From an uncultured Alphaproteobacteria bacterium (GTDB lineage Bacteria; Pseudomonadota; Alphaproteobacteria; Caulobacterales; Hyphomonadaceae), in the NCBI GenBank assembly GCA_903831255.1, contig CAIKWZ010000026.1, positions 1-64,000 of the forward strand: a DNA stretch of 64,000 bases, written 5' to 3'. The position numbers and the translations under genes were made by a program. Positions 61,486-64,000 of the stretch are shown here, in pieces. The notes under the pieces are model-generated. The model worked only from the letters and a program-made list of their open reading frames with translations, ran no database searches and was not told where the DNA came from. Position 1 is the first letter of the stretch, and every line of letters starts with the position of its first letter.

Positions 61486-61566
61486 AACGCGGGGAGATCG
61501 GTTTGATGGGATGCAAATGGACCTGTAGTGTTCTCCAAATCCGCCAGCCGCGATCGGACCGCCGTC

Positions 61567-62670
61567 ATGCCTGAACTCAGAATTCTGCTCGAGCTCCGGG
61601 ACTGGGCGCTCGATCTCTCGCAGTGGCCTCAGAAGATCATGTGGGCTGCGATGGCGGTCCTCGGAGGCCTCCTCGCAGGTCTGATCATCTCTCGCGTGAT
61701 CGTCTCGGCCGGCCGCAAGATCGCCCTCGGGTCAACCGACCCGAACCGGCAGAGCGCTGATCATGTGCTGATAGACACCCTTGCCGTCATCATCAGAGCG
61801 CTCGTCGTCCTCGCATCGGTCGCCTTCGCAGCCGATATCATGGGTTTTTATCACATCGAAGACGCCCGGAACCTCGCCCTCGCGACCATCAAGGGCGTAT
61901 CCATCCTGATCGCCATCTGGGCGCTCGGCGCCTGGATCAGTCTCCGCATCCGGCGTTTCGGAGACCGGGTTGCGGGCGGCGCTCATCCCGGCGGTCAGAC
62001 CCTCTTCATCTTTCTGGCTTCCCTGATGCGCTTTGGCGCCCTCGCCATAGGCCTCATCGCAGCCCTGCAGCAGTTCGGCTTTCCGATCGCCTCGCTGGTC
62101 GCCGTCATCGGCGCGGCCGGCCTCGCCATCGCCCTGGCGCTGCAGGACACCCTGAAGGCGGTCGCCTCAGGAGTGATCATCGCCGTTTTCAGGCCCTACA
62201 GGATCGGGGATTTCGTTCGCGTGGCCAACGAAGAGGGCACGGTCGTCGACATCACCCCGTTCACAACCGTTCTGGCGACCGTCGATAATCGGGAAATCGT
62301 GGTGACCAACGACAAGGCGTGGGGAGGCGTCATGACGAATTTCACGTCCCGCGGACGTCGTCGCCTGGAGCTTGTTTTCCCCGTCTCCTACGAAGCCGAC
62401 CTCGATCATGCGATCGCATTGATTCGGGAGACCGCCGAAGCGGACCCGAGAGTGGAGATCGAGCCGCCGGTCTGGGTGAAGGTGGCCGAACTCGCGGACT
62501 GGTCCGTCGACATCAGGCTGCGGGCGTGGTGCCGAACGGAACACTATGTCGATCTGCGGGGAGACCTCATAAAATCGATCAAGCAGGCGTTTGACCGGTC
62601 GGGGATCGTCATCCCCTACCCGCATCAGGTTCAGGTCGAAAAGTTCAGTCCCGTGCCGGAAGAGACTTAA
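61567..62670 (+). CDS. mechanosensitive channel, MscS family
   Basis: 367 residues from ATG 61567; GTG 61528 is an alternative, neither with a strong ribosome-binding site. About five transmembrane helices (WAAMAVLGGLLAGLIISRVI onward), the pore helix GAAGLAIALALQDTLKAVASG, then the MscS beta domain (YRIGDFVRVANEEGTVVDIT, VVTNDKAWGGVMTNFT). The cytoplasmic C-terminal alpha/beta domain is complete (VWVKVAELADWSVDIRLRAW). Releases osmolytes on hypo-osmotic shock. Convergent with the P-II gene, stops overlapping by 4 bp. Confidence 0.92.
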   Translation: MPELRILLELRDWALDLSQWPQKIMWAAMAVLGGLLAGLIISRVIVSAGRKIALGSTDPNRQSADHVLIDTLAVIIRALVVLASVAFAADIMGFYHIEDARNLALATIKGVSILIAIWALGAWISLRIRRFGDRVAGGAHPGGQTLFIFLASLMRFGALAIGLIAALQQFGFPIASLVAVIGAAGLAIALALQDTLKAVASGVIIAVFRPYRIGDFVRVANEEGTVVDITPFTTVLATVDNREIVVTNDKAWGGVMTNFTSRGRRRLELVFPVSYEADLDHAIALIRETAEADPRVEIEPPVWVKVAELADWSVDIRLRAWCRTEHYVDLRGDLIKSIKQAFDRSGIVIPYPHQVQVEKFSPVPEET

Positions 62671-63167
62671 TCGAGAGCCGTCTGGTCTCTCTCGCCCGTC
62701 CGGATGCGAACAACCTCAGTCAAACCGCTGACAAAAATCTTCCCGTCGCCGATTTTGCCCGAACCAGCGGCCTTTTGAATGGCGTCCACCACCGATTCCA
62801 CCATCGAGGACGCAACTGCGACATCCACCCGGATCTTCGGGATCTCGGCCACTTTGTACTCTGCACCCCTATAGAACTCCGTCTGTCCGCGTTGACGCCC
62901 GAACCCCTGAACCTGGGTCGCGGTCACCCCGGACACGCCCAAAGTCATCAGAGCCTCCCGCACGGCCTCATAACGGTGGGGACGAATGATGGCGGTGATC
63001 ATGCGCATGGGATGGTCCTCATCATGCTGGAGACCGAGATGGACAAGACGACGTATGGCTTCGGACCGCGATGGCAGGTCGGACTGACGACGACGCCAGT
63101 CATCAACGATCTTCCCGAAACTGGCGGAGGCCACCAGCTGGATTCTCTGATCCAGTTTATCGTTCAC
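62667..63167 (-). CDS. P-II signalling protein with N-terminal ribbon-helix-helix domain
   Basis: 166 residues from GTG 63167, with GGAG nine bases upstream. Residues 8-46 (RIQLVASASFGKIVDDWRRR then QSDLPSRSEAIRRLVHLGLQ) have the strand-helix-helix pattern of CopG/Arc-type DNA-binding domains. Residues 54-166 are a complete P-II: MRMITAIIRPHRYEAVREAL, the T loop QTEFYRGAEYKVAEIPK with Tyr104 (Tyr51 in P-II numbering) and the B loop GSGKIGDGKIF. A second start, ATG 63008, falls exactly at the normal P-II N terminus with GAGG eight bases before it. No amtB or glnA is in view. Could link nitrogen/2-oxoglutarate sensing to DNA binding (inference). Confidence 0.88.
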   Translation of the reverse strand: MNDKLDQRIQLVASASFGKIVDDWRRRQSDLPSRSEAIRRLVHLGLQHDEDHPMRMITAIIRPHRYEAVREALMTLGVSGVTATQVQGFGRQRGQTEFYRGAEYKVAEIPKIRVDVAVASSMVESVVDAIQKAAGSGKIGDGKIFVSGLTEVVRIRTGERDQTALD

Positions 63168-63383
63168 GTCACGCGCTCCGCGTCAGGCACAACACAAGCC
63201 TTGTTGCACATCTTCGCCAGCTTACACATGACTTTTTGGCTATCGCGAGGTACCGGGCGCATCGCCCGGAGATTCAACGCCGCCGTCAACCCCTTGATAA
63301 CCACCACGCTTTACGGATCGAGAGGGTCCCGGCCGGCTGAAATGCCTGGCTAGCCCCCGGAAGAGGTGGAGCCATCCGGAGCG
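63168..63383. promoter_or_regulatory. 216-bp divergent promoter region with 7-bp hairpin
   Basis: Lies between the P-II fusion and the response regulator. Contains a perfect inverted repeat CCGGGCG / CGCCCGG (63253-63259, 63263-63269, 3-base loop). A sigma-54-like pair on the minus strand (TGGC...GC) has the wrong spacing (GG-N9-GC). Confidence 0.45.
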
Positions 63384-64000
63384 ATGACGGGTCAAGGGAC
63401 AATGGAAACAGCTCAAACCCTGCAACCCGCTCAGCTGAAGAAGCTGCGCGTGCTGATCATCGACCCAAACGTTTTCATGCGAAACGTCATCGCCGACAGC
63501 CTTCGTCGGCTCCACGTCACCCACATCTCGAGCTACGCCAACGCCGCTCAGGCAGGAAGCTCAGGGCGCCTGTTCAAGCCGGACCTGGTGATTGTCGACT
63601 GGGACGCCGGCCGGATTTCCGGACTTGAGTTCACCCGTGAGGTTCGTCGGGAGACGACCGGTCTGCAGCGGGATCTGCCGATCATTCTGCTGGCGGCGGA
63701 AATCGACCACGAACAGCTGATGGCGTCCCGCCAGGCTGGGATCAACGAATTTCTCCTGAAGCCCATCTCGGCGCAGGGGATCCTCACACGGGTCGAAGAA
63801 GTGATCCTTAGACCAAGACGGTTCATCGACAGCCGCAGCTATATCGGACCCTGCCGGCGACGTCGGGAGGAGCCGGGCTATCTTGGCCCATGGCGACGGC
63901 TTCTAGATGATCCTCCCTCAACGGAATTGAGCGCGACCGCGCGACAGAACGCCATCCGGCTTCGCGCCATCATCGACGATCTTCAGGCCTTCGCAAGCGG
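63384..64000 (+). CDS. response regulator receiver protein, 3' end outside window
   Basis: At least 205 residues, open at the window end. Starts at ATG 63384 or, with AAGG better spaced, ATG 63402. The receiver domain occupies about residues 20-145: LRVLIIDPNVFMRNVIADSL, phospho-acceptor Asp in DLVIVDWDAGRISGLEF, and the conserved Lys in FLLKPIS. The first acidic pair is reduced to one Asp (DPN instead of DDN). After it comes SYIGPCRRRREEPGYLGPWR, a linker type seen in other alphaproteobacterial receiver proteins. The output domain is cut off. Divergent from the P-II fusion gene. Confidence 0.88.
   Translation, partial: MTGQGTMETAQTLQPAQLKKLRVLIIDPNVFMRNVIADSLRRLHVTHISSYANAAQAGSSGRLFKPDLVIVDWDAGRISGLEFTREVRRETTGLQRDLPIILLAAEIDHEQLMASRQAGINEFLLKPISAQGILTRVEEVILRPRRFIDSRSYIGPCRRRREEPGYLGPWRRLLDDPPSTELSATARQNAIRLRAIIDDLQAFAS

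Follow-up and report, generated by a model that had tools for sequence, protein, structure and literature searches.

Can a P-II nitrogen sensor and a DNA-binding domain share one polypeptide chain, and, if so, which genes would the protein control? The question is raised by a locus near the end of the window, that is, the whole 64-kb stretch of DNA (64,000 nucleotides) from an uncultured alphaproteobacterium that was analysed here. An earlier note on this DNA had described a 53-residue in-frame extension of a P-II ORF with its own GTG and a GGAG, had read the extension as a ribbon-helix-helix (RHH) domain, and had suggested the divergent response-regulator promoter or the gene's own promoter as targets. 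We find the ORF as described, on the minus strand at 62667-63167, with P-II beginning at residue 54. The features of the locus are as follows.

61528-62670, plus strand: gene for an MscS-type mechanosensitive channel, convergent with the fusion gene
62667-63167, minus strand: RHH–P-II fusion gene, 166 amino acids, GTG start, stop codon at 62667-62669 (from the ORF, Pfam and orthologues)
62670-63008, minus strand: P-II domain, complete, residues 54-166, with T-loop, Q39, Y51 and K58 (E. coli numbering) and Glu at position 55
63006-63020, minus strand: candidate start of internal translation: GAGGA, a 7-nt spacer and ATG (M54)
63009-63029, minus strand: linker QHDEDHP, 7 residues, whose codons include the inner Shine-Dalgarno-like stretch
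63030-63167, minus strand: proposed RHH domain spanning residues 1-46, with its strand at about 8-14 and helices at 15-26 and from 34 onwards (Pfam, profile and AF2)
63126-63146, minus strand: RIQLVAS, presumed DNA-reading strand (R8/Q10/V12 invariant in 32/32 fusions)
63176-63179, minus strand: GGAG ahead of the GTG start
63203-63229, minus strand: candidate operator, 9-bp units ATGTGTAAG CTGGCGAAG ATGTGCAAC, with the only TGTGTAA of the window on either strand
63366-64000, plus strand: CheY-like response regulator gene, divergent from the fusion, running past the window end

The stops of the MscS-type gene and of the fusion gene ORFs overlap by 4 bases.

Distribution and conservation of the fusion

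In its own family (f1), 27 of 105 genomes, from 6 of 10 genera, carry the fusion, as detected with a model that joins the RHH to the first residues of P-II. Among 101 genomes, its own and relatives, we obtained 25 fusions of full or almost full length, counting the one in its own genome; these are 66-99% identical. Broader surveys, in which the best 14-15 candidates were scored per genome, covered the class (385 genomes), the order (398) and the phylum (398). Twelve genomes matched in the class sample, and six of these carry fusions: its own, one from family f14 and four from family f54, whose fusion genomes are 1.3-1.4 Mb and AT-rich. The other six comprise a close standalone RHH in genome G301 (locus L172, kept out of the fusion counts), four RHH-like frames, and one chance match that bridges the end of an ammonium transporter and the beginning of a P-II. 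The order sample yielded 25 fusions, every one in family f1, together with two genomes whose RHH-like frames end without P-II, and the phylum sample added no further fusions. Among plasmid records, 15 match the extension and 99 the whole protein; in two of the three matching records examined, the annotated glnK starts past the extension-aligned part, and the third is unannotated there. Phage records held nothing matching the extension.

The extension is conserved in relatives, a point on which the earlier note had hung its reading. In all 32 fusions from the three families, D6 and the P-II Met lie 48 residues apart, and the strand residues R8/Q10/V12 are invariant. Furthermore, the stretch D6..L46 is under purifying selection, with dN of 0.09-0.27 over 28 pairs of eight loci; in the same pairs, 20-30 of 41 codons differ in their third position. 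SEAIRR or DWRR was found in an upstream open frame at none of 79 P-II loci of other named organisms, including alignments that reach the extension. This absence, together with the conservation, rules out a chance ORF ahead of P-II. Judged by its fixed length across three families and by purifying selection, the upstream extension is real protein.

The extension as a ribbon-helix-helix domain

Profile searches gave a graded answer. On its own, the extension in the window matches Pfam RHH_1 weakly (E 0.027; 14.9 bits, below the gathering score of 20.5), and against PDB it gives chance matches only. The wider family, consisting of the window domain and 24 viral-contig relatives, matches RHH_1 at E<=1 in 21 of 25 members, the best at 1.6e-5. 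The RHH assignment of the earlier note thus holds in an HMM search at the level of the family, while the window domain itself falls under the RHH_1 cut-off. Against PDB, the best match of the wider-family profile is the RHH of E. coli NikR (E 0.0034); a profile from close relatives alone gives beta-propeller matches too. The alignment with NikR places R8/Q10/V12 opposite R3/T5/T7, positions that we take to be DNA contacts in RHH proteins.

The AF2 model of the RHH domain (mean pLDDT 85) has an extended N-terminal end followed by helices at 15-26 and 34-50. Foldseek with this model returned 14 matches, all with E-values of at least 1, including MazE-mt1 (ranks 1 and 2), ParD2 and PrpA. By VIA-align, six of 11 chains are RHH proteins, with Z of 4.5-5.5 over 44-47 residues. 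Five of the six, ParD2 (twice), TraM, MazE-mt1 and ParD1, are known RHH proteins, and PrpA was assigned by its title; the remaining five chains are titled TCP domain or transcription factor–DNA complex. In a full-length AF2 model built with P-II-only alignment rows, the RHH part reached pLDDT 52-64 (blocks of ten), and this model was set aside. A mixed alignment was dropped because P-II rows had fallen on the RHH part.

Conservation, the NikR profile match and the predicted strand-helix-helix fold agree with the extension being an RHH, and together with the conserved candidate operator described below they support both the fold and a DNA-binding role. The antitoxins ParD2, MazE-mt1 and PrpA among the closest folds could point instead to a protein-protein module, antitoxin-like or serving to pair trimers. 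We consider this highly improbable: the presumed DNA-facing strand residues are invariant, operator-like sites are conserved, and by eye no toxin partner stands among those neighbours of the fusion loci that were inspected.

A candidate operator at the fusion promoter

The word TGTGTAA occurs within 200 nt upstream in 28 of 28 fusion loci of families f1 and f14, and only twice more in the 365,674 bases (both strands) of their neighbourhoods; mononucleotide shuffles placed it upstream in at most 3 of 28. In the window it lies at 63222-63228, inside the first 9-bp unit. The earlier note had looked to short inverted repeats near the fusion start; none in the window is informative, and it is TGTGTAA that emerges as the conserved candidate site. 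No sigma-70-like promoter was found in a scan of 63100-63450. In several g1 relatives, inspection by eye shows TGTGTAA flanked by TTGGCT and TAnnnT hexamers spaced 17 bp apart.

Within 300 nt upstream, the exact word is absent from all four f54 fusions. About 100 nt upstream of these fusions (L168-L171) we noted by eye GTAAA-containing ATGTAAAC-like words, possibly a drifted operator; these words follow an apparent tRNA gene, again by eye.

The divergent response regulator is the usual neighbour of the fusion (response-regulator cluster 0, present in 20 of 25 neighbourhoods according to a noisy ORF caller). It is absent at three relocated fusions (L134, L137 and L138), which lie among unrelated genes and keep TGTGTAA upstream. 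Since the site follows the fusion without that gene, the response regulator is not supported as the main target. Of the two targets suggested earlier, the fusion's own promoter is therefore upheld by a site that travels to three unrelated loci, and the divergent gene is not specifically supported. The response regulator contains a YIGPCRRR-like stretch, and in some relatives (among L115-L139) two adjacent copies of it lie upstream of the fusion.

A second site at a GlnK-like P-II gene

The genome that contains the window has six RTGTGTAAS sites (reversed-pattern control, 14). Two of the six lie before the fusion and before a GlnK-like P-II gene elsewhere in the genome (G000:C74), and the others are inside or bordering genes in which no relation is apparent by eye. 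The only other site near a start codon is GTGTGTAAC (G000:C75:164299-164307), at the start of an enoyl-CoA-hydratase-like frame.

GlnK-like promoters also carry a 9-bp array, in the genus of the window often GTGTTGAAG GTGTGTAAG nnnTGCAAT. TGTGTAA lies within 250 nt of the GlnK-like gene, on either strand, in 20 of 23 fusion genomes, compared with one of 22 genomes without a detected fusion. The 23 derive from 27 fusion genomes by leaving out the GlnK-like genes of G002, G039, G103 and G114; L271 and L298 were dropped because no P-II was found by pattern search. Strong as this association is (Fisher 1e-8), it tracks phylogeny and so represents few independent events. As far as sequence conservation can tell, these data support the GlnK-like gene as a target of the fusion.

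At the GlnB loci of family f1, TGTGTAA was found in 0 of 35. In one of four f54 genomes (G412, locus L337), two TTACACA sites, 15 bp apart, lie 107 and 92 nt upstream of glnB-glnA; since this genome is AT-rich, the pair may be due to chance. Two ammonium transporter genes in the genome of the window were considered as targets and set aside, as TGTGTAA is absent from the stretches of their loci that were covered.

Standalone relatives and the presumed reading of the site

A scan of viral contigs identified 44 loci with relatives of the RHH domain, mostly small standalone frames. TGTGTAA lies upstream in 10 of the 44, where 0.0086 are expected at each locus. These 10 (L181, L182, L189, L190, L191, L192, L194, L198, L199 and L215) are candidate phage-type autorepressors. 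The standalone RHH of G301 likewise has TATGTGTAATTTGCTA before its own start.

We collapsed identical viral RHH stretches, leaving 38 distinct sequences (one unalignable sequence was counted among the others). TGTGTAA accompanies four of the six with strand RQV, against three of the 32 others (p 0.006). L181, which is among these four, comes from a viral-contig record and has a 63-residue frame identical to that of L172 in G301, so the two are not independent. A grouping by Q/H then V/T, chosen after seeing the data, puts the site at 7 of 10 against 0 of 28. Binding specificity thus appears, from these sequences, to go with the strand residues.

The site could alternatively belong to a different regulator of P-II genes, with the RHH binding elsewhere. 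Site and fusion both follow clades, as that explanation would have it. In one genome (G012, of the same genus as the window and 77% complete) the GlnK-like site is present although no fusion was detected, and the three genomes with relocated fusions (G032, G034 and G037) have the fusion without a GlnK-like site. Against this, TGTGTAA stays with the fusion at unrelated loci and in family f14, it precedes standalone RHH genes with similar strand residues, and it is absent at all the f1 GlnB loci, albeit present twice at one f54 GlnB. We regard a different regulator as quite unlikely.

The P-II half

The P-II half is complete: it matches PF00543 at 92.4 bits (cut-off 25) over model positions 1-102 of 102 (residues 54-159 by Pfam), and its closest PDB sequence is E. 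coli GlnK. The residues that we take to bind the ligands 2-oxoglutarate and ATP are kept (Q39 in 31 of 32 fusions, K58 in 32 of 32), as is Y51, presumably the site of uridylylation (32 of 32). The GDGK and RIRTGE stretches are kept in 24 aligned fusion copies, an alignment from which L029 (G023) was left out. The fusion resembles GlnK and GlnB in these respects and differs from them in several others. It misses the NCBIfam equivalog cut-offs (PRK10665, 146.5 against 181 bits; PRK10858, 131.2 against 202 bits), it has the N-terminal RHH, and T-loop position 55 is Glu in all 32 fusions, where the other P-II proteins examined have Phe or Leu (xFLPK, DFVPK or RLLPK).

In a tree of 120 P-II domains, the P-II halves of the 32 fusions form one group (support 100/99), separate from the GlnB and GlnK-like proteins of the same family. 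For this tree, GlnB and GlnK-like near-copies were collapsed and the G023 fusion was trimmed to 84 residues. This grouping points to one old origin of the fusion as a third P-II paralogue. In f54, two P-II genes were detected per genome (n=4), the fusion and a GlnB ahead of glnA. Elsewhere in the genome of the window, a weak P-II match (36.5 bits; L004:518-1788, G000:C1) directly follows a 320-residue hydrophobic permease-like frame, which to us looks like SbtA, so that the pair resembles sbtA-sbtB of bicarbonate transport.

The P-II half might merely oligomerise an autorepressing RHH, with no ligand switch. This would suit those standalone RHH relatives that have the site upstream of themselves and lack a sensor, as well as the Glu at position 55. 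It would also suit the G023 fusion (L139), whose frame is broken near the P-II C-terminus, so that this part is either lost or affected by an assembly error. But the retention of Q39, K58, Y51, GDGK and RIRTGE is as expected for a working ligand-binding P-II, and we consider the lack of a ligand switch unlikely.

A proposed mechanism

The comparative data establish both domains of the fusion, their rigid spacing, common ancestry and conserved sites. The reading that we favour, and hold to be probable, is that of a NikR-like one-component repressor with a P-II sensor, controlling its own gene and the GlnK-like P-II gene. For the fuller claim that P-II is here a transcription factor, a 2-oxoglutarate- and energy-sensing RHH repressor that acts on 9-bp repeats at its own and a second P-II gene and exists in two forms, we see the chances as evenly balanced.

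P-II senses MgATP/ADP and 2-oxoglutarate (PMC6243067). The inputs of the fusion would be the same, possibly with uridylylation at Tyr51. Its RHH strands would pair between subunits and read RTGTGTAAG-like units every 9 bp, and the ligand-bound sensor would set the geometry of the RHH dimers on the repeated half-sites, by analogy with NikR. We infer binding of the sites, repression, and release at high 2-oxoglutarate/ATP. Nitrogen shortage usually raises the expression of GlnK-type genes, and for this reason we propose that repression would hold at nitrogen plenty and be released when 2-oxoglutarate/ATP is high, that is, at nitrogen shortage.

The closest known architecture is that of NikR, in which an N-terminal RHH likewise precedes a sensor domain and whose RHH is the best PDB match of the fusion-family profile. 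The NikR sensor domain is small and has a ferredoxin-like fold. The sensor of the fusion differs in being P-II (PF00543), and the NikR C-terminal nickel-binding domain has no match at E<=1. P-II is a trimer and NikR a tetramer. This raises the structural question of how a trimeric P-II fits with a dimeric RHH; the fit may be achieved by paired trimers, or by mixed trimers with short or GlnK-like subunits. Standalone CopG/Arc-type RHH proteins (about 60-90 amino acids; for example L172, L181, L189 and L194) share the domain, a similar strand and an upstream TGTGTAA, but lack a sensor domain.

P-II affects gene expression via a separate partner in GlnK-AmtR and GlnK-TnrA, and to our knowledge known systems let P-II reach genes through partner proteins only. 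In the fusion, by contrast, sensor and DNA-binding domain share one chain. In PII-PipX-NtcA, too, P-II controls transcription via a separate adaptor or regulator (PMC6243067). In the full-text literature searched, which includes few subscription papers, no listed title or abstract beginning describes a P-II that itself contains a DNA-binding domain. RHH-plus-sensor repressors and P-II are each already known; what appears new is the combination, a NikR-like architecture with a different sensor. The DNA site shared by two P-II genes suggests that the sensor switches genes itself, without partner proteins. If so, a protein from one of the most widespread signalling families would connect 2-oxoglutarate/ATP to a promoter by a path that could not be shorter, with a small, testable regulon of a named site and two target promoters.

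A possible second product

An SD-like stretch of at least 4 bases precedes the M54 ATG in 30 of 32 fusions. The corresponding counts are 244 of 1859 for internal control ATGs (all frames over 250 residues, spurious frames included) and 75 of 80 for starts of free P-II genes. In the 27 f1 copies, the fourth codon ahead of M54 reads GAG (15), CAG (8), AAG (3) or AGG (1), followed by GA; AGGA stands at a fixed place in 26 of the 27 and AGGGA in one, although the encoded residue is E, Q, K or R. The naive chance of such a conserved inner SD codon is about 1e-6, with relatedness ignored. These patterns suggest that a plain 113-residue P-II is also made, or that an ancestral P-II ribosome site was kept.

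The extreme version of this idea, that translation begins solely at the inner ATG and yields just the 113-residue P-II, leaving the upstream frame as a relic or leader, could appeal to the conserved SD-like stretch and to the nearest outer start, which is TTG or GTG in 23 of 32 fusions. It is scarcely credible given an upstream frame that is intact, of fixed length in all 32 fusions of three families, and under purifying selection. Alongside the full-length repressor that we favour, a short P-II from the inner ATG could dilute the trimers or mix into them.
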